Below, one piece after another: positions 3,075 to 25,605 of a DNA stretch of 64,000 nt. Under the pieces are notes generated by a model. The model had not been told where the DNA came from, did not search any database, and saw nothing but the letters and a program-made list of their open reading frames with translations. A program made the position numbers and the translations under genes. Every line of letters starts with the position of its first letter. The first letter of the stretch is position 1. This DNA is from Pedobacter sp. MC2016-05 (GTDB lineage: Bacteria; Bacteroidota; Bacteroidia; Sphingobacteriales; Sphingobacteriaceae): positions 1 to 64,000 of the forward strand of contig NZ_JAPIVT010000006.1 of the NCBI RefSeq assembly GCF_026239735.1. Reading direction: 5' to 3'.

Positions 3075-4235
3075 ATGTACTCTGATCAAATCGCAATACC
3101 GCAAGGTCTCCTAAGTGATAATAATTTAGATGAAGATATAAATATTCTTATAGGCGAAAATGGAAGCGGAAAGAGCACCTTACTGAATGCTATTGCACGG
3201 CATTATATTTTCAACACGAGAAGAAAAGTTATCGCATTGGCTAATACCATCCACGATAAATTCAATTTTAAAAACCCTCGTTTTGAAATCCTGCGAGCAT
3301 CAACAGGTAAAACAATAGCTAAAAAAACTCTCAAATCGGCTTTGAAGCTCCTCGTTGAAAATGATAATAAAAGACAAAGCAGCATTGCAATCGCATTGCG
3401 TTATGTAAATTTCGATCCAGTTGTAGGGATAAGAGTAAAAGGTATCAAAAGGAATTTTGAACAAATAATTGACAACGATGCACAATTAACAGAAAAGGCG
3501 AAAAGTGATATTTCATACTGTCTTTCGAGGTTCTTAAGAGAAACACCATATAGTAACGACATCCATAGGATCAACCTACATCACTCTGATTTTTACGATT
3601 TAAGGGATTCTTTTCTGATTACTATCTTAATCTATGAAAAAGAAATTAAATCACTGAAATTGATTAGTGATATAGAGGTTTTTCTATTCAGAGATCGACA
3701 AATACTTCCATTAAATAGTGCTAGTTCAGGCGAACTTACGTTAATAACTTCATTATTATACATTGTGTCCAGTATTTCCAGTCACGCAGTGATCTTAATT
3801 GATGAACCTGAGAATAGCCTTCATCCAAAATGGCAAACTGAATATGTCAAATTGCTTATTGACCACTTCTATCGATATGAACCAAAAATAATTATCGCTA
3901 CGCATTCACCCTTAATAATCAATGCGGCTGAAATCACATCCTCAGGGGTTACAGTTTACAAAGGAAGTAATGGACAATTTGCAAGTCAGTTTAGCGATTC
4001 CCAAAATGTTGAAGAAATATATCAGGATTTTTTTAATGTCACGACCCCTGAGAATAGATATTTATCGCAAGAAATTGTCAAACTCATGAATTTACTTGCA
4101 GCTGGGCAAATTGATATTGTCCGATTTGAACTTGAAATAAATGATTTTAGAAGATCTTCTTATAGTGACGACCAAAAAGAGGTTTTGGATGGGATTCTTG
4201 AAATGGGTCAGAAAATAATTGAAAGTAGAACCTAA
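3075..4235 (+). CDS. ptuA: Septu-like ATPase (PtuA-type), SMC/ABC-type AAA
   Basis: This is a P-loop ATPase of the ABC/SMC type. Walker A is GENGSGKS at residues 27-34, the signature-like SSGE is at about 218-221, Walker B ILIDEPE ends at about 246 with D243 and E244, the D-loop SLHP follows, and the H-loop histidine is H277 (IIIATHSPLI). At 386 residues it has only a short middle insert and no TOPRIM nuclease domain, which argues against an OLD nuclease. Its stop codon overlaps the next gene's start (TAATG at 4233-4237), so the two are translationally coupled. An ATPase coupled to a small HNH nuclease is the Septu (PtuA/PtuB) anti-phage arrangement. The symbol is given by architecture. A related but distinct ATPase-HNH type cannot be excluded. 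Confidence 0.75.
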   Translation: MYSDQIAIPQGLLSDNNLDEDINILIGENGSGKSTLLNAIARHYIFNTRRKVIALANTIHDKFNFKNPRFEILRASTGKTIAKKTLKSALKLLVENDNKRQSSIAIALRYVNFDPVVGIRVKGIKRNFEQIIDNDAQLTEKAKSDISYCLSRFLRETPYSNDIHRINLHHSDFYDLRDSFLITILIYEKEIKSLKLISDIEVFLFRDRQILPLNSASSGELTLITSLLYIVSSISSHAVILIDEPENSLHPKWQTEYVKLLIDHFYRYEPKIIIATHSPLIINAAEITSSGVTVYKGSNGQFASQFSDSQNVEEIYQDFFNVTTPENRYLSQEIVKLMNLLAAGQIDIVRFELEINDFRRSSYSDDQKEVLDGILEMGQKIIESRT

Positions 4236-4843
4236 TGCCAATAACTGCTGAAGACTTGGTAACAATACAAGAAGCGATTGACCAAGGAGGGAAAATTTGG
4301 GAAAATGAGATATTGGTAGATATCAAACGCCGGATAAAAGTACATTATTTAACCATAACTGATGAGCAATGTTGTTATTGTAGGAGAGATATGACAGATG
4401 AGTTTAATATGGTTATTGATATAGAACATGTTTTGCCAAAATCACTTTATGGTAACTTCATGTTCCGGCTTTTCAACCTTAGTGTCTCCTGTAAGCGTTG
4501 TAATATGAGGATAAAGGGTAATAACATTGATTTTTTGTTAGATGCAGAGGGAGTTCAATTGAATGCACAGGATCGTTTACAATATCTGATTAGCCATCCG
4601 AATCTTGATGAGTATTTTGAGAATATAGAATACTTAGTAAATACCAGGAATAATAAAAAATCTGTCAAGTATATAAAACTTTCGGAAAAGGGAATTTACA
4701 CATATAATTATTTTGAGCTTGAAAAACTTGAGGTTGACACGCTTAACAAAGCTCAAGGAATTGATATTTCAGGCACAGAGCTTTCAGAAGATATTTCTCC
4801 AGAGATAGCAGTTGAGAGCAAAGAACTATTAAAACGAATATAG
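4235..4843 (+). CDS. ptuB: HNH endonuclease, Septu PtuB-like
   Basis: The 202-residue protein has a classical HNH zinc-finger core. C46 and C49 (CCYC) form the first knuckle, IEHVLPKS at 63-70 carries the catalytic histidine H65, a conserved N is at 81, and CKRCN at 86-90 forms the second knuckle and the final N. The region after about 100 is helical and acidic with no recognisable domain. It starts on the stop codon of the ATPase gene. In Septu the HNH protein is the effector nuclease recruited by the ATPase. DNA cleavage on phage infection is the family expectation and is inferred here. The 47 bp to the convergent ATPase gene downstream has no strong terminator. Confidence 0.8.
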   Translation: MPITAEDLVTIQEAIDQGGKIWENEILVDIKRRIKVHYLTITDEQCCYCRRDMTDEFNMVIDIEHVLPKSLYGNFMFRLFNLSVSCKRCNMRIKGNNIDFLLDAEGVQLNAQDRLQYLISHPNLDEYFENIEYLVNTRNNKKSVKYIKLSEKGIYTYNYFELEKLEVDTLNKAQGIDISGTELSEDISPEIAVESKELLKRI

Positions 4844-4890: not shown

Positions 4891-7449
4891 CTATTTAGCC
4901 TGAAATGCAGTTCTGATTTTCTTATAACTTTCAAAATCTGATTTCAAACCAAAAATACTCGGTGTAACGTGCACCCCATCAGGGCTACTATGGCCATCTA
5001 TAGACGTACAGCACTTTTCATATAATTCATTTAGATCACCTTTTAGAGAGTCGATCTTCGTACCGTCAATTCTCAGCAATGCTGGAAAAGCGACCCCTTT
5101 TCTATAACGTATAATTGTATTTTTCAAAACATCTTCTTCTACACATACCTCTATAGCTGCTCTTAGGTGACCGTATCCTTCAGATGCTAATTTTTCTTCG
5201 CTTAAAGATTTATCCAAACATTCTAATACCTTTTTGAGCTTGTTGATATAGAACGTATGTGAATTAATCCCTTCCACGTCATCTAATATACCCGTATCCC
5301 CAAAGTTATTTTTAACTGCATAAAATGTAAAATCAATTCCCTGCTGGGCATTTGTGGGTAACTTTGATTGCTGGAGTAAGCTGTTTAGCAATAAGATACT
5401 ATGCGTGAAAATTACGACCTGTCTATTTTTAGAAAGCTTAATGAGCCTTATCGCAACATCATCAATAATGTTATGATCTAGGCTATTTACTGGATCATCA
5501 AAAACAACAGGAGCTTTAGTATTATCCAAATCAAGTTCAGTCAAAAATTCAGCTAGGGCAATCGCTTTTTGTTCTCCTTCGCTTAATATATCGGTTAGGG
5601 TATATTGATTGATCTTCTGACTAATTTTGGAATTTCCCTTATCGGTACCAAAGCTTAGATCAATTTTTAAGTGTGATTTCCCAAATGCTTTAAGTTCCTT
5701 CTGAAAGGTTTCACCAAAGTTCTGGCTAATCAATTCTTCCCTAGCTTCCGTTGTTTTTCTACTTATCGAAGCTGTATTAAATTCGCTTGCCTTAGAATTT
5801 AACAAGGCTAAGTTTTTTTTATTGAGTATAACTTTCTTGATTTCTACTTCATTGTCTGCAAGCATTTTTCTATCTTTCAGTTCATTTATCTCCGTTTGAA
5901 TAGCAGAGACTTGTTCAGCTATAGTTAAAAGCGCCTCATTTTTAATTTTAAGCGTTTCCGATAGAATAGATTTTTGATCCTCAAGCACCTTGATGATTGC
6001 CGAATAACTTAAATCAAAATTAATCTCTTTAGATAAGGTATTATTAACAAAGGCGTCTTTAAGACTTTGTATTTTTTTGTTAAAAGAATACAATTCAATT
6101 GGCTGAATTACATTTGATTCTGTATCAATACCAAATGAAGCCTGATTTAGTATTATATTACTTTCAACTAAATTGATTTTATTGATTAATTCTGTTCTGC
6201 TTTTATTGGAATTCCTAAGATCAGTTTCTGTAGTATCGTTCAAAAGTTTTTTATAGGCCGATAGTAATTGTTTAGCTGGTTCTTCCAAGGGTTGCTTGCA
6301 GTAAATACACTCGTCGCCTATTTTTGGATAAGGTGGTTCGAGTAGATTGATGTAGTTTTCGGCTGAAATAATAAAGTTTTTGAATTGCTGTGTTTCATAA
6401 AATTGAATATCATTAGCTTCAGCAATCTCCTTCAATCCAACTTTACTTTTTCCTTGAAGTGAAACGATTGTTTCATTTAATATAATCAGACCATCCCATA
6501 CAGTTTTGCTAAAAATTGCTTGAGTACCTTTAATTTTTGATACCACGTTTGTTAGTTCCGAAATTTGGGTAGTGAGGTTTCGTATTTGCGTAGTTATCAA
6601 TTCTTGGTTTAATCCTTGTAGGCTTTTCTCTTTCTGAATAATAGCATCCAAGATATTCGTTGGGAATTCAGATAATTTGGCCAATTGCTCCTCGCTTGAT
6701 TTATCAGTGAGACCATTGATAAAAGTATGTTGAGCAGTACCCTCATGTAAGGTAGCAGACCAAAGAAGTGTTACAGGATATGAGCTTTTTTTAACATTCA
6801 ACAAGTTACTTAGTTCGACTAGTTCACTTGTTACAATATTGAATAAATGAAAACCAATTGGAGAAACAATTAATTTACGGTCAGTTAAAGATATTTGGAC
6901 ACAATTATTGTTAAATACTGAAATGTTAGACAGAGAAGATTCTACATTACTCCCATTCCAATTGAAAGTACTGCTCAATCCATTTACACTAAAATCGATT
7001 GTTGCTGATTTGGGTTCGTTTACACCATATATGTTATGGTGGATGGTATTATGCACATCATAGCTAAAACCCAGTGTCTTTAATATTCTACCATAGCCTG
7101 TTTTCCCAGTACCATTTTCTCCATAAACAACTGTTAAATTGTTAGCGAAATCCATTTTTTGGTTTTTGGCTAACCGGTTTACACCAGTAACGTTAGATAA
7201 AGTAGCTAGTTTTATTGTTTTATCGGTGGATTTAAAAATAGGTTTATGAACAGTAATCGCAGCCAATTTCCTCTTGGTTCGCAACGAATCAATAAAATGA
7301 TCAAAAACCTGTTCCCTTTCAGAAATAGACAAGGCAGACTCTGTTTTCACAATATTATCAATCAGGAGCTTTGCCCAATCTCCTTTTGGTTCAGCCCATT
7401 CCCATAGGAAATCGATAATCTCTTTTTTTGCAGTTGTTGTTGATGCCAT
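4891..7449 (-). CDS. Large coiled-coil ATPase, AAA_13/RloC-like
   Basis: This is an 852-residue SMC-like ATPase. Walker A is GENGTGKT at 110-117. A long coiled-coil-rich middle (about 220-590) is interrupted by a zinc-hook-type C381-x2-C384 (CIYCKQPL). LSEGEQKA is at about 620, Walker B VVFDDPVNSLDH is near 650, and an H-loop (FTHS) follows. The C-terminal 110 residues contain LRAAIE (about 761-766) and a later GHSSPDG (about 820), an Arg-Glu-His order like that of the anticodon-nuclease domain of PrrC/RloC. The combination of ATPase head, zinc hook and C-terminal R/E/H domain suggests an RloC-type stress-activated tRNA nuclease. The AAA_13 family is broad and the nuclease assignment is inference. 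It lies 44 bp after the repeat protein gene on the same strand and is probably in one operon with it. Confidence 0.7.
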   Translation of the reverse strand: MASTTTAKKEIIDFLWEWAEPKGDWAKLLIDNIVKTESALSISEREQVFDHFIDSLRTKRKLAAITVHKPIFKSTDKTIKLATLSNVTGVNRLAKNQKMDFANNLTVVYGENGTGKTGYGRILKTLGFSYDVHNTIHHNIYGVNEPKSATIDFSVNGLSSTFNWNGSNVESSLSNISVFNNNCVQISLTDRKLIVSPIGFHLFNIVTSELVELSNLLNVKKSSYPVTLLWSATLHEGTAQHTFINGLTDKSSEEQLAKLSEFPTNILDAIIQKEKSLQGLNQELITTQIRNLTTQISELTNVVSKIKGTQAIFSKTVWDGLIILNETIVSLQGKSKVGLKEIAEANDIQFYETQQFKNFIISAENYINLLEPPYPKIGDECIYCKQPLEEPAKQLLSAYKKLLNDTTETDLRNSNKSRTELINKINLVESNIILNQASFGIDTESNVIQPIELYSFNKKIQSLKDAFVNNTLSKEINFDLSYSAIIKVLEDQKSILSETLKIKNEALLTIAEQVSAIQTEINELKDRKMLADNEVEIKKVILNKKNLALLNSKASEFNTASISRKTTEAREELISQNFGETFQKELKAFGKSHLKIDLSFGTDKGNSKISQKINQYTLTDILSEGEQKAIALAEFLTELDLDNTKAPVVFDDPVNSLDHNIIDDVAIRLIKLSKNRQVVIFTHSILLLNSLLQQSKLPTNAQQGIDFTFYAVKNNFGDTGILDDVEGINSHTFYINKLKKVLECLDKSLSEEKLASEGYGHLRAAIEVCVEEDVLKNTIIRYRKGVAFPALLRIDGTKIDSLKGDLNELYEKCCTSIDGHSSPDGVHVTPSIFGLKSDFESYKKIRTAFQAK

Positions 7450-7493: not shown

Positions 7494-7952
7494 TTAAAAA
7501 TAATTTTCAGGATAAAGGAAACTAGGCAAGTGCCTACGAATAAGGCCTGCTTGGGCTTTATAACCTCTCTTTTCTAATTCAAGTAGAAAAACAGGCCAGG
7601 GCGGTATGTTACTTTTATAAATATTTTGTGCCGAAGTTGACATTCCTCCCCCAACAGAAGAGGACAATCCACCATAGAGTGATGTTGATAATCCACCATA
7701 TAATGACGTAGATAGTCCACCATACAATGACGTAGATAATCCGCCATACAATGAAGTTGATAATCCACCATATAAGGAAGTTGACATACCTCCATATAAA
7801 GAAGTAGACATACCTCCATATAAAGATGTAGACATGCCTCCATATAAAGAAGTAGACATACCACCTCCTATTGATGTGGATAATCCACCACCAATTGCCG
7901 TACTTAAGTTTCGCGGCCATGTTTTCATTTCTTCTATGAATGGTCTACTCAT
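7494..7952 (-). CDS. Small protein built of an 8-residue STSLYGG repeat
   Basis: The 152-residue protein has three parts. Residues 1-15 are a short leader (MSRPFIEEMKTWPRN). Residues 16-103 are eleven tandem 8-residue units of consensus (M/L)STSLYGG, with GGG-type units at both ends. Residues about 104-152 are a non-repetitive tail (NIPPWPVFLLELEKRGYKAQ). There is no signal peptide or membrane helix. Neighbouring frames are also open only because the repeat is 24 bp long. The proper frame is chosen because it has the unique conserved-looking head and tail and sits just upstream of the ATPase gene in the same direction. I do not recognise the family. A beta-solenoid, amyloid-like or scaffold role is conceivable, as the repeats are Ser/Thr/Gly/Tyr-rich, but nothing proves it. 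Confidence 0.65.
   Translation of the reverse strand: MSRPFIEEMKTWPRNLSTAIGGGLSTSIGGGMSTSLYGGMSTSLYGGMSTSLYGGMSTSLYGGLSTSLYGGLSTSLYGGLSTSLYGGLSTSLYGGLSSSVGGGMSTSAQNIYKSNIPPWPVFLLELEKRGYKAQAGLIRRHLPSFLYPENYF
7644..7907 (-). repeat. 24-bp coding minisatellite, about 11 units
   Basis: The DNA of the repeat region is eleven tandem 24-bp units. The four MSTSLYGG units and the four LSTSLYGG units form two blocks with differing third bases. Each unit contains GGAGG, and in the M-type units an ATG follows one base later. Unit number can change without a frameshift, so copy-number variation between strains is expected. Confidence 0.9.
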
Positions 7953-8274: not shown

Positions 8275-8394
8275 AAATCATACCAGCTAGCTGAAAATTG
8301 AACGAAGTTCACGTGCCAGCGGGATCAAAACTATGTCTATAACTACCTTTAAATCCATAAAAAATAGGCGGTTAATCTGATATTTTTTCAATTC

Positions 8395-8619
8395 CTAAAA
8401 ATCAAATAAATCCCTTGGATCAACCTTCAGAAATTTAGCATAAATCGAAACGTGACTGATACTCGTATTCACTTGCCCGAGTTCGGTTCTAGCAATCTGA
8501 CTTTGAGACACCTCAGTAAGTAATGAAAACTGTTCTTGAGATAATCCCCTATCTTCTCGTACCTGTTTCAATTTACGGCCAAATTTTTTGATAAACTCTT
8601 CGTCCTTTAAATACTTCAC
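8395..8619 (-). CDS. XRE-family HTH transcriptional regulator
   Basis: This 74-residue single-domain Cro/C1-type HTH protein has the typical order: FGRKLKQVREDRGLSQEQFS (helices 1-2), then SQSQIARTELGQVNTSISHV (recognition helix and turn), then FLKVDPRDLFDF. Such one-domain regulators often control mobile elements and defence operons. It lies between the repeat-protein/ATPase operon and the sigma/dCas12f locus and could control either. No operator was identified. Confidence 0.85.
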   Translation of the reverse strand: MKYLKDEEFIKKFGRKLKQVREDRGLSQEQFSLLTEVSQSQIARTELGQVNTSISHVSIYAKFLKVDPRDLFDF

Positions 8620-8992
8620 CTAACAAATAGACTGCAATAAAACAAAATAATTAATAGCAAATTTGCTATTAAGAATAATCCTTCTTAAATTAGCTTTATG
8701 AAGAAATAACAGAATAAAAAATAAAATTGCAGTTCAATTATCAGTAAAGGAATTGCTAACATGCCTCGCAACTAAATCTGACAGTTTATTCCCGCGAAAG
8801 TAAGTTGAGCAACCAAAACCCTATATTTGCTATAGGGTTGGTGCTCACTTATGCCTTTTGTGGGAGCCCTTCTCAACGGAAGGGGGCTTTGTCAGAGCCA
8901 AGTTACATTAGACTAAGTGAGTTGCCAGCCCTATTTTTCAAATTGGCATCCACTTGTTGAGGCTTATTTAATATTAAATTAAATGAGAACAT
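8620..8992. other. Leader region of the sigma-factor gene with predicted RNA structure
   Basis: There is no gene in this 370 bp. The last 190 bp is GC-richer and highly structured (see the hairpins at 8807-8888), with a further pairing TGCCA/TGGCA near 8920-8950. It ends at the ATG of the sigma-like gene at 8993, so it is probably the 5' UTR or a separate small RNA. Confidence 0.5.
8807..8888 (+). ncRNA. Candidate structured RNA: two strong hairpins upstream of sigma gene
   Basis: Hairpin 1 (8807-8846) stacks GAGC with GCTC, ACC with GGT, and AACCCTAT with ATAGGGTT around an ATTTGC loop. Hairpin 2 (8865-8888) pairs AGCCCTTC with GAAGGGGGCT. The strand is given as that of the downstream gene and is not proven. 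It could be a 5' UTR element, a small RNA or a REP-like DNA element. Confidence 0.4.
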
Positions 8993-9805
8993 ATGGAACC
9001 CTCAAAAACAAAAGTGCTGCCAAAGCACCAACACTATTTCAGTATGTTGCTGGCAGGCAATGAAAAGGGCTTGGCGTTTTTCTATCAGCTTTTCTACCCT
9101 TCATTATATTACAGCGGCCTCAGGTACATTAAAGACGATGTAAATGCAGGTTGCATTGTAAACGAGGCTTTTCTGCGGCTTTGGCTTACCAGAAAAAACA
9201 TGAGCTGCCCCAGCCAAATAGAAATCTTTTTGAGGAAACTCACTTCCGATGGTTGCAAGGCTTATTTTAAAACCTCCAGCAACAGGTTTCAGCGAAACAT
9301 GCTCCGGCTAGATGAGTTAGAGAACTACCAAGAATTTATGGCAGGTTATGACCCAACACTCGAAGAGGAGGAACAATCGCTTTACCAACAGGAACCCGAA
9401 GCCGATATTAAAGAGCAATGGCAAAAGGTGGAGGCGGTACTCCCCAACCTCTCGGCTGAGCAACAAATGTTCGTCCGCCTGTGTATCAAGTATGCTTTTG
9501 ATTATGGGCGTATCGCATGGCACATAGGTGGCATCTCAGATTACCAAGTGGCCAGAAAAGTAGAGCAAACGCTGGCTTGCCTAAAAGCAATTATTACCGA
9601 TACCCAAAAACTAGAAGCAGTGGGGCAAGTCAGTAAATTTAAGTTCGAGGGCGATCTGAGTGAGGAGAATACGGCCATTATGCACATGCGCTACCAGTTG
9701 CAATATAGTTTTAGAGAAATCGCAGCCGCACTAAAGTTAGATCAAGGTTATATCCAACAGGCATTTGTTACGGCATCACTAAAGATTAAAAAAATTAAAC
9801 TGTAG
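8993..9805 (+). CDS. ECF-like sigma factor, probable partner of dCas12f
   Basis: The 270-residue protein has a sigma region-2-like segment at about 20-95 (AGNEKGLAFFYQLFYPSLYY, then RYIKDDVNAGCIVNEAFLRLW). This matches Bacteroidota ECF sigma factors, whose consensus is G-x-E-x-A-F ... LYYS ... D-A-x-x-I-V-x-E-x-F-x-x-L-W. Region 4 (about 145-200) contains LPNLSAEQQMFVRL and a helix-turn-helix. It is unusually long for an ECF sigma: after region 4 a second HTH-like block (about 222-268, MRYQLQYSFREIAAALKLDQ) is appended. The next gene on the same strand, 750 bp on, is a nuclease-dead Cas12f-like protein. Genetically linked ECF sigma and dCas12f are known from Bacteroidota, where the RNA-guided protein recruits sigma and polymerase. 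No anti-sigma gene is adjacent, which fits that alternative control. Confidence 0.75.
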   Translation: MEPSKTKVLPKHQHYFSMLLAGNEKGLAFFYQLFYPSLYYSGLRYIKDDVNAGCIVNEAFLRLWLTRKNMSCPSQIEIFLRKLTSDGCKAYFKTSSNRFQRNMLRLDELENYQEFMAGYDPTLEEEEQSLYQQEPEADIKEQWQKVEAVLPNLSAEQQMFVRLCIKYAFDYGRIAWHIGGISDYQVARKVEQTLACLKAIITDTQKLEAVGQVSKFKFEGDLSEENTAIMHMRYQLQYSFREIAAALKLDQGYIQQAFVTASLKIKKIKL

Positions 9806-9894
9806 CTAAATTATGTCAGTCTTGACGTGTGCCGATTTTACATCGGTAGCGTAGTCGAAGACCGTCGTTAATAGAAGTAAAATAAAAAACAGCT

Positions 9895-9918
9895 GTCCTT
9901 CGACAGGCTCAGGATGAC
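9895..9918. repeat. REP-like GTCCTTCGACAGGCTCAGGA element
   Basis: This has the sequence type GTCCTTCGACAGGCTCAGGA followed by TGAC, an abundant dispersed intergenic repeat of Bacteroidota. A diverged relative is inside the hairpin at 61092-61155. Confidence 0.6.
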
Positions 9919-10180
9919 ACTTATTTAATAAAAATCAAAATAAATGACGGTTTTCCGCAGGTATAAAGATATGAATCATGCATGTCCCCCTTTGGAGAGT
10001 TTACTCCGATCTGTCGGAGGGGCAGGGGGAGGAATTAAATAATTGTACTGATTTTCAGCTAGTTAAAATAACGTCAATGGTAGCGTAGTTGAAGGAATTA
10101 TTTTTTGTTTTTGACTGAAATAGAAAGTCTTCGACTACCAGCCACGGCAGGCAGGCGCTCAGACTGACACAAAAAGAACA

Positions 10181-10297
10181 GAGTGCCAATGCCCGGCATA
10201 GCTTGTGCCGATTAATCGACAAGGGCGGGAAAGACTGTGTAGTGGGCAAATAAATTGGCTTAATGACAACTAAAAAAATTAGACATGAAAAACACAA
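10181..10297 (+). repeat. Duplicated dCas12f leader, decayed copy
   Basis: GAGTGCCAATGCCCGGCATA, then GGGAAAGACTGTGTAGTGGG, then ATGAAAAACACAA repeat the leader of the dCas12f gene at 10470-10568. This copy has a 22-bp insertion and its ATG opens only an eight-codon frame (MKNTNMKI). It looks like the relic of a duplicated gene start. Confidence 0.75.
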
Positions 10298-10469
10298 ATA
10301 TGAAAATATGAAATGTCAATACGGTTAGGTCGCTAGCTTCGAGCACCGCCCTTAAACTAGCTTAAATCGGCCTTGGCCTTTGCGGCTGAGAAAACATTAG
10401 CCAAAGCAGAAACTTTAAAAGCAAAGGGCGCAGCCGACGACTTTTCCTCCATTTTGGTCGTTCAAAATG

Positions 10470-10568
10470 GAGTGCCAATGCCCGGCATAAGGGCAGGAAA
10501 GACTGTGTGGTGGGTGAATTGATTTTTTTACTACTTGAATATCTAAAATTAACTTATGAAAAACACAA
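10470..10568 (+). repeat. dCas12f leader, functional copy
   Basis: This is the second copy of the unit at 10181-10297. It keeps GAGTGCCAATGCCCGGCATA and GAAAGACTGTGTGGTGGG, and its ATG at 10556 opens the real gene. The shared 5' block is a candidate promoter or 5' UTR control region. Confidence 0.7.
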
Positions 10569-11650
10569 TGGTAGTCACCCGTAAAATCCAGCTGTTGATC
10601 GATTCTAAAGATCAGGAATTCATCAAACAGACCAAAGCGCAGCTTTACAACTGGCAATGGATCTGTTTCCGTTCTGCCAACATGATTATGAGCCATCAAT
10701 TTATTCAAGAACAAGTAAAAGATTTCTTTTACCTCACAGAAGAGATTAAATTTAAAATTGCCGACCAAAAGAAGGAGGAAAATGGGATTTTGAAATCATC
10801 AAGGCAGAATACCACCTACAGGTTGTTGTCTAACCATTTTAAAGGTCAGGTGCCTACCAATATCCTCAGCAATTTAAATAACTCACTGCTCAGTAATTTC
10901 AACAAAGAAAAAGACGCCTATTGGAAGGGAGAAAAATCACTCCGAAACTATAAGCGCAACATCCCCCTGCCTTTTGGCGCCGAGGTGTTATGTGGGCTGA
11001 GCCATACCGCAGATAACAGGGATTTTTCTTTTAAACTTTTCCAAATTCCTTTTAAAACTTATCTGGGTAGAGACCGGTCTGATAAGAAAATGATGTTAGA
11101 AAGGATTAAGAGCGGGGCCTTAAAATTACGTGCCAGCCATTTGCAGTTAGACGGGGGCAAGGTATACCTGCTTGCAGCGATAGAAATTGAAAAAGAACAG
11201 CATGCACTTGATGCCACAATTATTGCAGAGGCTTCCCTTTCCATAGAGCATCCGGTAATTGTAAAGGTGGGTAGTTTAGAACAGGCCATTGGTAGCAAGG
11301 AAGAGTTTTTACACCGCCGGCTGGCGATACAGGCAGCCATACAAAGGGTAAAAAAAGCCGTGCCCTATAACCGTGGGGGCCATGGTAAAAAGCGCAAAAT
11401 GAAGAGCCTGGAAGATTACCAACACCTTGAAAAAAGATATGTGGAGCAGAAACTGCATGTATACAGCCGGTTGTTGATCGATTTCTGTGTTAAAAACCAT
11501 GCAGCTACCCTCCTTCTGGTAAACCAACTGGAGAAAGAAGAAATAGCTAAAGACGATCAGTTTTTGTTGAAGAACTGGAGTTATTATAGCTTAAAGGAAA
11601 AGATTACCTACAAGGCAGCAAAAGCTGGGATACAACTTATTTTAGAATAA
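10556..11650 (+). CDS. Nuclease-dead Cas12f/TnpB-like RNA-guided protein (dCas12f)
   Basis: The 364-residue protein is collinear with Cas12f/TnpB. It has a WED/REC-like N-terminus (1-125), IPLPF (136-140), RIKSGALKLRASHLQLDGGK (183-202, a WED strand block), then the RuvC region. The RuvC-I block is EHPVIVKVGSLEQAIGSKEE, where the catalytic Asp of the D-x-G motif is replaced (K237). GHGKKRKMKSLEDYQ (275-289) is the basic bridge-helix-like part. RuvC-II is LLLVNQLEKEE, with N323 where the catalytic Glu is expected. KNWSYYSLKEKITYKA (339-354) is the diagnostic TnpB/Cas12f motif. The protein stops at 364, before the CxxC zinc ribbon and the last RuvC Asp. All three catalytic positions are thus changed or missing, so it should bind but not cut. 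Structured guide-RNA-like copies follow within 3 bp of the stop. A sigma factor precedes it. There is no TnpA gene. Confidence 0.85.
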   Translation: MKNTMVVTRKIQLLIDSKDQEFIKQTKAQLYNWQWICFRSANMIMSHQFIQEQVKDFFYLTEEIKFKIADQKKEENGILKSSRQNTTYRLLSNHFKGQVPTNILSNLNNSLLSNFNKEKDAYWKGEKSLRNYKRNIPLPFGAEVLCGLSHTADNRDFSFKLFQIPFKTYLGRDRSDKKMMLERIKSGALKLRASHLQLDGGKVYLLAAIEIEKEQHALDATIIAEASLSIEHPVIVKVGSLEQAIGSKEEFLHRRLAIQAAIQRVKKAVPYNRGGHGKKRKMKSLEDYQHLEKRYVEQKLHVYSRLLIDFCVKNHAATLLLVNQLEKEEIAKDDQFLLKNWSYYSLKEKITYKAAKAGIQLILE

Positions 11651-11652
11651 TT

Positions 11653-11780
11653 TTTTAAAGTGGCTGCCTGCGCAGCCTTAGGGTGAGGTTTAAAAAAGAT
11701 CCACTAAGCTGATCTTTGGATCGGAAAACGCAGTAGTTGGGGTTAAACCTTATCGAACAGATCGACGGGTAGCCAGAGCC
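11653..11780 (+). ncRNA. Guide-RNA-like element 1 of dCas12f
   Basis: It begins two bases after the dCas12f stop. GGCTGC-CTGC-GCAGCC (11662-11677) is a perfect 6-bp hairpin, followed by TTAGGGTGAG. Then GGTTTAA (11687-11693) pairs with TTAAACC (11743-11749), enclosing AAAGATC/GATCTTT. The order resembles the tracrRNA part of Cas12f guide RNAs, where a GGCUGC-loop-CAGCC hairpin is followed by a similar UAAUGUCGAG-type link (recalled, not aligned here). Copy 2 at 11831 shares GGCTGCCTGCGCAGCCTTAG and AAACGCAG. After ATCGAA (11752-11757) the copies diverge, so the guide probably starts at about 11750-11758. The 3' end is not defined. Confidence 0.75.
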
Positions 11781-11830
11781 AATTAACATATGACAAAGTA
11801 TAAAACGGAAGCAAAGTTGATGATGGAATG

Positions 11831-11950
11831 ATTTTTACAGCGGCTGCCTGCGCAGCCTTAGGGTGAGATTTCGGTACTTACCAATTCCGATAATGGGAAA
11901 CGCAGCGGCGGGCTTCATCGAAAATGAGGAATTATAAATTGCCCGTATTT
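11831..11950 (+). ncRNA. Guide-RNA-like element 2 of dCas12f
   Basis: Tandem copy of element 1, about 180 bp further on. It has the same hairpin GGCTGC-CTGC-GCAGCC (11842-11857), TTAGGGTGAG, then TCGG/CCGA (11871 and 11887 region), GGGAAACGCAGCGG and ATCGAA (11917-11922). The copies are well conserved in the scaffold but not after ATCGAA, which is the behaviour expected for a scaffold followed by a guide. An alternative boundary is after CGAAAATGAGG (11919-11929), if ATTTCG/CGAAAAT pairs as the terminal stem. Guide candidates are therefore AATGAGGAATTATAAATTGC or the sequence starting about 7 bases later. Confidence 0.75.
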
Positions 11951-11996
11951 TGGCAAAATTGAAGGATTTTAACATCCCAATAAGTTTGACCCCTAC

Positions 11997-12056
11997 CTCG
12001 CCAATTTATAAATATGCAGCCAATCAAAAACTTACAACAAATCTATTGCTGGTGAG
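11997..12056. repeat. 60-bp dispersed repeat, copy A
   Basis: CTCGCCAATTTATAA and GCAGCCAATCAAAAACTTA recur at 25363-25422. By eye 53 of 60 bases agree. Both copies are in intergenic DNA, 13.4 kb apart. It is neither a terminator nor a clear inverted repeat, and its nature is unknown. An ORF at 11950-12258 reads through it and overlaps the end of the convergent HTCS gene. I do not call that ORF. Confidence 0.65.
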
Positions 12057-12235
12057 ACTTGGTCAATCTATTCAGGAGAAAATACTAGTTTCGGGCAGCC
12101 AGTCTCATATGTTACTCACAAAAAAAGAAGCATTTATATTTATTCAAGAAAATTCAGCACAGAAAACTACCATGAACAAATGTAGGAGCCATTTTCAATG
12201 CGTTTCGTTATCACCATATCAAACGGGAAACTCCA

Positions 12236-15028
12236 TTAATTATTCTGTTTCTTTTTGAAATCAGACGGACTCATTCCATATTTACTTTTGAAAAGCGTTG
12301 AAAAATATGTAGGTGAAGATATTCCTATTTTGAAAGCGATTTCCGAAATTGAAAAATCGTCGTTGGCTAACATATAACTAGCCTTTTTTAACCTTCTATT
12401 TAAAATATAGTCGGTGATGCTACAATCCAGTAATGCTTTAACCTTTCTGTAAAGCTGGATTCGTGATATACCAATCATCGCCGCAAGTTTCTCCACATTA
12501 AGTGTTTCATCACCAAGGTGATGTTCTACAAATCCAGCAAAATCATTAAGAAACTTTTTATCAAGATGGCTTAGTATTGATTTTCGCTCTGTGTCTGAAC
12601 TAATATCGCTGACGTAATGCTCTTTCAATAACATTCGGTTTGAGAGCAGGTTCTTCACATTTGCCAGAAGGTAGTCAAAATGAAAAGGTTTGGTCATGTA
12701 GAGATCAGCCATGCTATTGATTCCATCTATCTGCTGTTCAGGGCTTCCTTGAGCGGTTAACAAAATAAGCGGGATGTGAGAAGTTCGGAGATCTGTTTTG
12801 ACCTTTTTTGCGATTTCCTTTCCTGACATACCAGGTATGATCACATCAGAAATTATAATATCCGGGATTTTTTCAAAGGCTTCATGAAGTCCCTGGTTCC
12901 CGGTAGTTGCTGTATATACCTCATAATGATTTGAAAATTTATCCACGAGGTATTTTAATAAATCTGAATTATCTTCAATAATCAATATGGAATATTCCCT
13001 GATATATTCAGCTATGGGATCAACCACTCTTTCCTCTACTACCAAATCTTCTGTCACGAAAACTTTTACCTGTTCGGTTAATGAAGTCATGCGGTCTGCC
13101 TCTTTTAACACGGAAACTTCAGAAGGTACCTGATTACCATACGGCATTGTTATTGTAAATGTACTTCCTTGCCATTTGCTACTCTGAACATCAATAATAC
13201 CACCGTGCAAATGCACCAGCTCCCGAGTGAGGGAAAGCCCAAGGCCAGAGCCTCGTGATTCGCTTGTGTTCGATTGATAAAACTGATCCCAGACTTGCAG
13301 CAATTCCTCCTGGGTCATTCCAGTTCCATTGTCAGCAACTGAAATGATGAAATGATCATCGTCAGTAATCAACTTCACGCTAATCCTTCCATGAGCGGGC
13401 GTAAATTTTAACGCATTACTTAGGAGATTAAGGATGATCTTGTCGAATATATTTAGATCAAAGTTGGCGATAACATCCGCTTTTGGGGCAGAAAACTTCA
13501 GGGCAATATCTTTTTTCTGCGCTCCATACCTGAAGCTTTCTACGATTTCATTTAAGAAAGACTGAACATTATTTGAGGTTGGATGAACATGGAATTTTTG
13601 GTGCTCTAGCTTTCGGTAATCAATGAGTTCGTTAATTAGTTTTAGCAACCGATATGCATTTTTTTGAATCCTGTTCAATTCCCGTTTTTGCTCACTATGT
13701 ATTTTTTCACTTTTCAGTAAATCTTCCAGAGGCGACAAAATCAAAGTGAGCGGAGTTCTGAATTCATGGGATATATTGGTAAAAAAATTTAGTTTTGCTT
13801 CCGTTGCAGCCTCAATCTTGGCAGATGCATCGATCAGTTTATTACGTTGATCCAATATCTGTGTATTTTTCTGCTCAAGACTTTTATTAATTTTTCGGTT
13901 CTCCACTAACGAAAAAAAAGCTAAACCTCCGAATATTACCGCCAATACGAGGGTGATCACAATGACATTGAGTACCAGTTTTTGATTATCATAAATTCGG
14001 AGCTGATCCGCTAGAATTGTTTGCTGACGTTCGATATCTCGCTGTTGACTGGAGACCTTTGCCCATTGTAATTTCATGAGTTGCACTAAAGAACTATCAA
14101 TGACTAAGCTTTGCAGAATATTTTCTTTTGAAAATGTTTCTTTATTTAAAATTTTAAAAGCAATACCAATGGCCTCCTTCCCTCCTGTTGGATAAAGCAC
14201 GCTAGCGGCAATTTTCCCATCACTAATAAGTTGCAGCCCGCCTCCTGATCCTGGAAGTGCATCTACCCCAATTACCTTAATGTCCTTTGAATCCTTATGA
14301 TGGCGAAGAAAATCTTCTGCACTGGCGGCCATTACGTCGTTATGTGCAAAGATCGCATCAGCTCGTAGTATTGCATCTTTATTCTTTTCCAATTCGTGAA
14401 AGGTACTATTGGCAATCCAATTTCCATAAACCTGAGATACCAGTTTTATTCCCGGTGATTTGCGTAATTCAGCAGCAAAACCTTTGTCACGCTCCATTGC
14501 GGGTGAAGATCCCGGCAGGCCCAAAATCTCCACCACTTTGCCATTTCCTTTGAGCAGCTTAGAAATATACTGGCCCGCCATTCTGCCAACCTGAAAATTT
14601 TCAGCGCCAACATATGCCGTGTATTGAGAAGAAGATGTTTTCCTGTCGAGCACAATGACAGGAATACCCATATTATATACTTTTTCCACGACATCTGTCA
14701 ATGGTGACGCTTCATTGGGAGATATGATTAAAATGTCGACATGGTTATCGATTAATTCTTTAACCTGCTCGATCTGTTTTTTGCTGCTGTTGTTCGCATC
14801 CCTATAAATGAAATTGGTGCCTGAGCGAAGGGAAAGTTCCATTTTCATCTCTTCCAGCATTGTCTTCCTCCACAAATCCGAGCCTACACATTGAGAAAAC
14901 CCTATCGTAAATTTTTTCTCTTCATGATTTTTGGTACAGCCAGAGAAAAACAGGATAATGGTCAACATCAGAAACCAAAGTTTTGATGCCTGAATAAAAA
15001 ATAGTTTCAAAGATATTTGGTTATTCAT
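12236..15028 (-). CDS. HTCS hybrid sensor/regulator with periplasmic sugar-binding domain (fructan PUL)
   Basis: The 930-residue hybrid two-component system holds in one chain an N-terminal lipoprotein-like signal (FFSGC at about 27-31), a type-I periplasmic-binding domain (about 36-310, FTIGFSQCVGSDLWRKTMLE), a membrane segment at about 350-375, HisKA with FFTNISHEFRTPL at about 412-424, HATPase_c (NLLSNALKFTP and GTGMTQEE), a receiver with phospho-acceptor in DIIISDVIIPGMSG (about 725-738), and a C-terminal AraC HTH (about 840-928). This is the architecture of Bacteroides BT1754, which senses fructose and activates the fructan PUL. It is divergent from the importer, fructokinase, SusCD and GH32 genes, so it is very likely their regulator. 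Fructose as ligand is inferred from context. Confidence 0.9.
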   Translation of the reverse strand: MNNQISLKLFFIQASKLWFLMLTIILFFSGCTKNHEEKKFTIGFSQCVGSDLWRKTMLEEMKMELSLRSGTNFIYRDANNSSKKQIEQVKELIDNHVDILIISPNEASPLTDVVEKVYNMGIPVIVLDRKTSSSQYTAYVGAENFQVGRMAGQYISKLLKGNGKVVEILGLPGSSPAMERDKGFAAELRKSPGIKLVSQVYGNWIANSTFHELEKNKDAILRADAIFAHNDVMAASAEDFLRHHKDSKDIKVIGVDALPGSGGGLQLISDGKIAASVLYPTGGKEAIGIAFKILNKETFSKENILQSLVIDSSLVQLMKLQWAKVSSQQRDIERQQTILADQLRIYDNQKLVLNVIVITLVLAVIFGGLAFFSLVENRKINKSLEQKNTQILDQRNKLIDASAKIEAATEAKLNFFTNISHEFRTPLTLILSPLEDLLKSEKIHSEQKRELNRIQKNAYRLLKLINELIDYRKLEHQKFHVHPTSNNVQSFLNEIVESFRYGAQKKDIALKFSAPKADVIANFDLNIFDKIILNLLSNALKFTPAHGRISVKLITDDDHFIISVADNGTGMTQEELLQVWDQFYQSNTSESRGSGLGLSLTRELVHLHGGIIDVQSSKWQGSTFTITMPYGNQVPSEVSVLKEADRMTSLTEQVKVFVTEDLVVEERVVDPIAEYIREYSILIIEDNSDLLKYLVDKFSNHYEVYTATTGNQGLHEAFEKIPDIIISDVIIPGMSGKEIAKKVKTDLRTSHIPLILLTAQGSPEQQIDGINSMADLYMTKPFHFDYLLANVKNLLSNRMLLKEHYVSDISSDTERKSILSHLDKKFLNDFAGFVEHHLGDETLNVEKLAAMIGISRIQLYRKVKALLDCSITDYILNRRLKKASYMLANDDFSISEIAFKIGISSPTYFSTLFKSKYGMSPSDFKKKQNN

Positions 15029-25362: not shown

Positions 25363-25422
25363 CTCGCCAATTTATAAGTGCGCAGCCAATCAAAAACTTA
25401 GGACAGATCTATTGCAGGTGAG
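25363..25422. repeat. 60-bp dispersed repeat, copy B
   Basis: Second copy of the block at 11997-12056 (CTCGCCAATTTATAA, GCAGCCAATCAAAAACTTA, ATCTATTGC, GGTGAG). It sits in the 270-bp intergenic stretch between the LprI-like gene and the tRNA, which has no other content than the terminator at 25500-25523. Confidence 0.65.
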
Positions 25423-25528: not shown

Positions 25529-25605
25529 TGGTGGAGAATATCGGATTCGAACCGATCACCTCTTCACTGCCAGCGAAGCGCTCTAGCCAAATGAGCTAAT
25601 CCCCC
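25529..25605 (-). tRNA. tRNA-Ala (GGC)
   Basis: The minus strand folds as a full cloverleaf: acceptor GGGGGAT with ATTCTCC, D stem GCTC/GAGC, anticodon stem CTTCG/TGAAG with loop CTGGCAG (anticodon GGC), and T loop TTCGAAT with stem ATCGG/CCGAT. The 3' CCA (25531-25529 on the minus strand) is encoded. Confidence 0.95.

Follow-up and report, generated by a model that had tools for sequence, protein, structure and literature searches.

We analysed a 64,000-nucleotide (nt) stretch of DNA from Pedobacter sp. MC2016-05 (hereafter the window), which lies on contig C55 of a 5.57 Mb genome assembled in 58 contigs and 99.97% complete. Our subject is a locus near its start that encodes an extracytoplasmic function (ECF) type sigma factor and a nuclease-dead homologue of Cas12f (dCas12f), with two units of guide RNA (gRNA) scaffold and guide behind them and a structured leader in front (Table 1). 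The sigma-like gene recognized in a preliminary description of this DNA was confirmed as such: its product matches the NCBIfam sigma70-ECF model over residues 27-198 (E 4.1e-12; score 46.1 bits, cut-off 42.9), and the sole RpoE that it matched in the PDB, chain C of entry 9n9q, aligns with residues 16-262 (E 3.3e-38). The same description had called the protein atypical on account of an extra C-terminal helix-turn-helix, a view that is not sustained. The second region-4-like stretch is weak (residues 221-266; Pfam Sigma70_r4, E 0.005, under the Pfam cut-off), and this C-terminal part is shared by the solved 9n9q RpoE and common to eight Pedobacter sigma factors. Compared with the ECF sigma factors of Bacteroidota (TIGR02985), the window protein has the same sigma-70 core regions but carries the extra C-terminal segment, and the next gene encodes dCas12f instead of an anti-sigma factor.

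Table 1. Features of the sigma-dCas12f locus in window coordinates; R1 and R2 are the scaffold and leader models described in the text
Feature	Position	Strand	Basis or remark
Helix-turn-helix gene, 74 aa	8395..8619	-	XRE-like by eye; divergent from window leader; open reading frame listing
Leader arm a	8801..8824	+	Complementary to arm b; arm a/b duplex z -6.1
Structured leader before sigma gene (arm b, two inner hairpins, arm c)	8829..8938	+	R2 58.9 bits, E 4.9e-9 genome-wide
Leader arm b, segment matched by guides in relatives	8836..8853	+	Preceding base 8835 is G
ECF-type sigma factor, 270 aa, RpoE of dCas12f-sigma system	8993..9805	+	NCBIfam sigma70-ECF; PDB 9n9q chain C
Spacer between sigma and dCas12f genes, 750 nt	9806..10555	+	Peculiar to window locus; short repeats, some recurring elsewhere in genome
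Nuclease-dead Cas12f homologue, 364 aa	10556..11650	+	S227 at RuvC-I Asp, N323 at RuvC-II Glu, no zinc ribbon
gRNA 1 scaffold	11658..11734	+	R1 hit 11658-11711, 42.0 bits; end point by eye from relatives
Guide 1, ~20 nt (length inferred)	11735..11754	+	Boundary from relatives with guide and target both known
gRNA 2 scaffold	11838..11906	+	R1 hit 11838-11888, 43.1 bits; end point by comparison with relatives
Guide 2, ~20 nt (length inferred)	11907..11926	+	Resembles relatives' SusCD-leader guide

The second protein is a Cas12f homologue of 364 residues, as had been claimed. It is matched by PADLOC Cas12 profiles (E 1e-49 and 8.3e-49) and, over residues 2-363, by the PDB entries named 'Nuclease-deactivated Cas12f' (9n9c, 9n9m, 9n9o and 9n9q; E 5.8e-132), behind which the Cas12f nucleases rank with E 5e-40 and weaker; matches to NCBIfam TnpB (E 5e-8) and Pfam (E 0.29) lie under their respective cut-offs. 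In the alignment the RuvC-I motif AEASLS stands against VGVDLG of active Cas12f, which places Ser227 at the position of the catalytic Asp. Among the 73 full-length relatives (75 loci minus the shortened proteins of L010 and L047) this position is Ser in 67 and Asp in one. The preliminary description had assigned the replaced Asp to K237, a position that is Lys in only 28 of the 73; its assignment of N323 to the RuvC-II Glu was correct, with Asn in 67 of the 73, and no intact RuvC triad was found. The protein ends before the zinc ribbon, as had also been seen, and since none of the 73 relatives extends beyond residue 364 the absence of this element is not damage. Judged from the RuvC changes and the truncation, nuclease death is family-wide. 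The RuvC part is homologous to that of the Cas12f nucleases of type V-F CRISPR systems (PDB 9nzr and 7c7l; E 5e-40 and 2e-7), but the catalytic residues of CRISPR-Cas12f immunity are absent, there is no C-terminal zinc ribbon, and no nuclease activity would be expected. The mean ratio of non-synonymous to synonymous change (pN/pS) is 0.14 between the window dCas12f and eight relatives and 0.13 among the relatives; as synonymous sites are near saturation, these values reflect long-term constraint only. AlphaFold models of the two proteins each had a mean pLDDT of 46.

Of 301 genomes of the host family, 73 contain a relative of dCas12f at E ≤ 0.001, in a few cases a partial one, and all nine relatives from named genomes are from Pedobacter. 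After removal of recognized duplicates (L001, L011, L012, L017 and L024), 75 loci remained, 70 of which have a sigma relative upstream on the same strand. Given the solved homologues of both proteins in 9n9q, both partners of the solved system are present at the window locus, and because the solved structures nearest in sequence are a dCas12f and an RpoE deposited together, we place the locus in the RNA-guided transcription family.

Two tandem structured scaffolds had been proposed directly after dCas12f, and comparison with relatives bears this out. Two helices find support in 48 aligned scaffolds of dCas12f loci, with 93.9% of 624 cells paired and changes on both sides in 10 of 13 pairs, a level not reached in any of 500 shuffles, while slid versions are 24-44% paired. 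Model R1, trained on these 48 rows with both window copies included, recovered the two window scaffolds from their own genome with E 2e-14 and 6.5e-14, the next match having E 0.012 (150 of 1,327 first-look candidates scored). Of 39 loci not used for training, 36 gave scaffold hits, two of these being truncated at the edge of the locus. When units were folded singly, unit 1 was supported (11640-11800, z -2.44, 3 of 200 shuffles as stable) and unit 2 was not; it is covariation that supports the scaffold. Scaffolds of relatives have ATGCAAT or ATACAAC/T at their end, and the sequence after it varies. Guides were taken by eye from the loci, automatic extraction having missed scaffold variants.

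The arrangement of scaffolds varies among relatives. They lie downstream of dCas12f in Pedobacter, and in the 39 loci outside the training set (L031-L039, L042-L055 and L057-L078) all 61 scaffold matches lie upstream of the gene. Scaffold matches are also present at all five dCas12f loci in which no upstream sigma relative is recognizable (L065, L071, L072, L074 and L076). At locus L026 (genome G028) a CRISPR-like array, positions 428-1310, directly follows the dCas12f gene and scaffold; it comprises 13 copies of a 37-nt repeat (its 24-nt core 14 times) at ~66-nt spacing and is a multi-guide version of the system, and related repeats occur in L005 and L006. No CRISPR array was found at the window locus, which has two scaffold-guide units only.

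In relatives, the places matched by the guides belong to one conserved leader of ~650 nt upstream of redoxin-SusC-SusD operons (assigned by Pfam in the window's own genome and by reading open reading frames in the relatives). Four genomes (G197, G212, G248 and G254) have both the guide GGCGGACTTCATGT and one matching site elsewhere behind a G, with GGCGGACTTCATGT-type matches perfect over 14 to 17 nt; G215 has the site and no such guide at its dCas12f locus. A second guide of G254, TACTATGGTTTTTCGCAA, has an 18-nt match behind a G ~395 nt further on in the same leader. The G215 guides TTCTTGACGGTAC and TTCTTAGCGGTAC have 13-nt matches, again behind a G, to a third leader segment in its GAC and AGC versions, both of which are carried by the leaders of that genome. 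All three kinds of site with a perfect match thus have a 5' G in front. Counted over the 11 dCas12f-bearing genomes with the SusCD-operon leader (leader A), a perfect guide-leader match of 13-18 nt was found in five (G197, G212, G215, G248 and G254), the guides of G275 not having been extracted for this count; in G218 the guide differs from the leader by two wobble-type differences only. Reversed-pattern controls in ten genomes gave 4 hits where the GGCGGACTTCATGT pattern gave 15, and 6 where the next pattern gave 20. At these control levels a lone hit with one mismatch carries no weight as evidence, which comes instead from the shared leader. Guides that match a leader behind a 5' G in five of 11 genomes are as RNA-guided control of transcription predicts.

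The core of the leader folds into a long outer stem that encloses two hairpins. Across 27 leaders, 94.0% of 566 cells pair and both sides have changed in 14 of 21 pairs; none of 500 shuffles was as high and slid versions were 29-50% paired, the structure tested having been derived from the same 27-leader alignment. Arm b, the guide-matched strand, forms the 5' side of the outer stem, where it pairs with arm c, and it can also pair with the upstream arm a (z ≤ -2 in 27 of 28 leaders, mean -4.1, mononucleotide shuffles). Searches of Rfam gave no match for four leader loci (E up to 1), four sub-threshold hits only in 8300-12300 (E 2.6 to 3.9) and one tRNA in the whole window. Since arm b can pair with either partner, and guides copy arm b or a strand of an inner hairpin, the system might act at the RNA level, the guide, identical to arm b, competing for arms a or c and dCas12f serving as an RNA chaperone. 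We consider this very improbable, because the 5' G before all three kinds of perfect site is expected of a DNA target motif, and because the sigma linkage would be left unexplained.

The position of the target sites, inside a leader that looks transcribed from its RNA-type covariation, would also fit a role of dCas12f as an RNA-guided repressor or roadblock like TldR, blocking transcription through the leader while the sigma factor acts separately. In PMC13418256, TldR proteins are described as nuclease-dead relatives of TnpB that serve as RNA-guided transcription factors and act by repression, no sigma partner being part of that description. They resemble the window protein in being nuclease-dead RNA-guided DNA binders that act on transcription; the window dCas12f has a sigma partner gene and is thereby set apart from TldR as described there. 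Linkage to a sigma gene at 70 of the 75 loci and the deposition of dCas12f with RpoE point instead to recruitment of polymerase, and repression by dCas12f therefore seems improbable.

The leader precedes the sigma-dCas12f operon itself in six genomes, those of L003, G197 and G218 and, in a diverged form, the window genome, G254 and G173. Leader A is present in 11 of 14 dCas12f-bearing and five of 20 dCas12f-free genomes of the same genus (Fisher P 0.0045, kinship ignored; the query was taken from a genome with dCas12f, and the comparison set comprises the 20 dCas12f-free genomes listed). In the dCas12f-free genomes G061, G161, G140 and G105 the diverged form precedes other genes. Given its presence without dCas12f, the leader leads an independent existence and has probably been taken over as an address. 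Small helix-turn-helix reading frames similar to the one divergent from the window leader also lie divergent to the leader in L236-L238. L236, L237, L239 and L241, all from dCas12f-free genomes, have a leader of the window type before a gene of 304-321 aa or (by eye) before an ECF sigma gene followed by a FecR-like gene. The motif TANNTTTG, which we take to be a housekeeping promoter motif, is enriched just upstream of the targets (8 of 28 leaders against 1.4 expected); a housekeeping promoter upstream of every target was rejected as a general rule, most leaders having a hairpin with a UUCG-like loop at this place.

In the window's own genome, a model built from the 27 leaders, its own three included (R2; 150 of 1,251 first-look candidates scored), finds three forward leaders. 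Those at C22:8778-8881 and C17:15179-15281 each precede a redoxin-SusC-SusD operon, and the third, at 8829-8938 of the window, precedes the sigma gene; two further hits are the reverse strands of the C22 and C17 leaders. The window leader folds with -48.4 kcal/mol over 8831-8936 (z -4.83, none of 200 shuffles as stable). With wobbles given half weight, comparison of the first 12 nt of guide 2 with arm b gives 10.0 of 12 for each SusCD leader (C22 and C17). Of the 41,099 sites behind a G in the window and the two stretches, six reach this score, both SusCD sites included (P 1.5e-4; further lengths tried gave P 1e-4 to 7e-4). Guide 1 weakly resembles arm b of the window leader (P 0.0038 over 12 nt and 0.045 over 16 nt), and crossed guide-leader pairings gave P 0.08 or more over 12 nt. 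Homology suggests a pairing of the own guides with the own leaders. Other targets of guide 1 were rejected: the guide-1 entries among the best 24 all lie in open stretches of at least 185 codons and were for this reason taken as chance, 30 of 72 guide-1 and 30 of 41 guide-2 hits being covered. A guide-2-like site is also seen at position 990 of L139, in a short open stretch.

The locus does adjoin a fructan polysaccharide utilization locus, as the preliminary description had pointed out, and a link between the two is unsupported. The R2 search of the own genome (150 of 1,251 first-look candidates scored) gave no leader hit there, and the guide hits in this genome, apart from the gRNAs themselves, all have two or three mismatches, at control level; the fructan locus was rejected as a target and is regarded as a neighbour only.

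Solved homologues, sigma linkage, family-wide RuvC changes, scaffold covariation and the guide matches of relatives together support the RNA-guided transcription locus first proposed from the sequence. We consider it likely that this is a dCas12f-sigma system for RNA-guided transcription that targets the leaders of SusCD operons and, in some genomes, itself. Several observations weigh against this conclusion. Five of the 75 dCas12f loci have no sigma relative, leaders also occur without dCas12f, and the window genome, G013, G173 and G176 have no clean guide-leader match; in G197 and G212 a second leader is unmatched by the same guide. Neither of the own guides has a site with fewer than two mismatches elsewhere in the 99.97% complete genome; up to three mismatches, they have 71 and 40 hits besides themselves where the reversed-pattern control has 85 and 47. 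Against both SusCD leaders, the first 12 nt of guide 2 include a single non-wobble mismatch, with further ones past that point. The window scaffolds score under most scaffolds of relatives, the gRNA 1 fold can pair the guide with its own scaffold over ~12 bp, and unit 2 alone is no stabler than shuffles (z -0.05). Finally, the gap of 754 nt between the sigma and dCas12f genes is confined to the window locus, the other 69 sigma-bearing loci having gaps of -125 to 127 nt (ends extrapolated).

Some of these features, namely the imperfect own guides, the 754-nt gap, the guide-scaffold pairing in gRNA 1, the lack of extra stability in gRNA 2 and the low scaffold scores, would fit a functional family whose member in this strain is decaying or has been re-aimed at something outside the assembly. 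The reading frames are nevertheless intact, pN/pS equals that of the relatives (a long-term signal only), and guide 2 still resembles arm b of both SusCD leaders more closely than it does almost any other site examined. Decay or re-aiming is possible but, on balance, rather unlikely.

If the locus is a working RNA-guided transcription system, we infer the following course of events. dCas12f would bind a gRNA produced by either of the scaffold-guide units that follow its gene, and the dCas12f-gRNA complex would open DNA beside a 5' G where the guide matches. It would then bring the partner sigma factor and core RNA polymerase to the matched site, so that transcription would be activated rather than repressed and would start a short fixed distance downstream of the target. 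In the Pedobacter group the presumed targets are segments, chiefly arm b, of the leader that precedes redoxin-SusC-SusD uptake operons; some genomes would also target the leader of the sigma-dCas12f operon, giving autoregulation. For the window locus, with its own guides presumed to work, the likeliest role as judged from sequence comparison would be activation of the two SusCD uptake operons and perhaps of the system itself.

The closest known counterpart is the dCas12f-sigmaE system of PDB 9n9c, 9n9m, 9n9o and 9n9q, to which both window proteins are homologous over nearly their full length. Sigma linkage, nuclease death, a gRNA at the locus and a 5' G beside the sites of relatives are shared with it, whereas the window locus differs in its long sigma-dCas12f spacer and in having two gRNA units that match their presumed targets imperfectly. 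A preprint on the dCas12f-sigmaE system by Hoffmann, Wiegand, Sternberg and others reportedly describes a 5'-G motif and a start site at a fixed distance from the target. We describe leader-RNA targets here and claim no priority over that preprint; no paper on a dCas12f-sigma system is among the literature matches listed. The protein system itself is of a known kind, and what is added here is the reading of its targets across Pedobacter genomes.

Other genes of the window lie close by. Upstream are a DUF4365 protein (1926-2960, Pfam E 3.2e-13) beside defence genes, a Septu-type defence pair PtuA/PtuB (3075-4843; PADLOC E 1.5e-108 and 3e-69), an 852-aa AAA protein with a strong match to the candidate defence family PDC-S06 (4891-7449; 1212.9 bits, PADLOC) and a 152-aa open reading frame that consists mostly of near-identical eight-residue repeats (STSLYGGM/L) and has no Pfam match at E 1 (7494-7952). 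A short duplicated stretch occurs behind the gRNAs (11997-12034) and at 25363-25400, close to tRNA-Ala (25529-25605), and could be the trace of an integration event.

The study of RNA-guided initiation of transcription is still young, and understanding its purpose calls for natural regulons. A covarying leader RNA class without an Rfam match accompanies the guide-target system described here, and the coincidence at arm b suggests that RNA-guided initiation and leader-RNA switching are linked. We speculate, with little confidence that all parts hold together, that arm b is one address with two uses, being both the strand of an RNA switch that pairs with arm a or arm c and the DNA target of dCas12f. 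If so, a sigma factor recruited at arm b would start a transcript past arms a and b, neither fold would form and the attenuator would be bypassed. Paralogous leaders within one genome differ in arm b, and the guides would then choose which SusCD operon, or the system itself, is switched on. With guides, targets, the 5' G and the operons likely to be controlled readable across Pedobacter, the physiological role of the system becomes directly testable.

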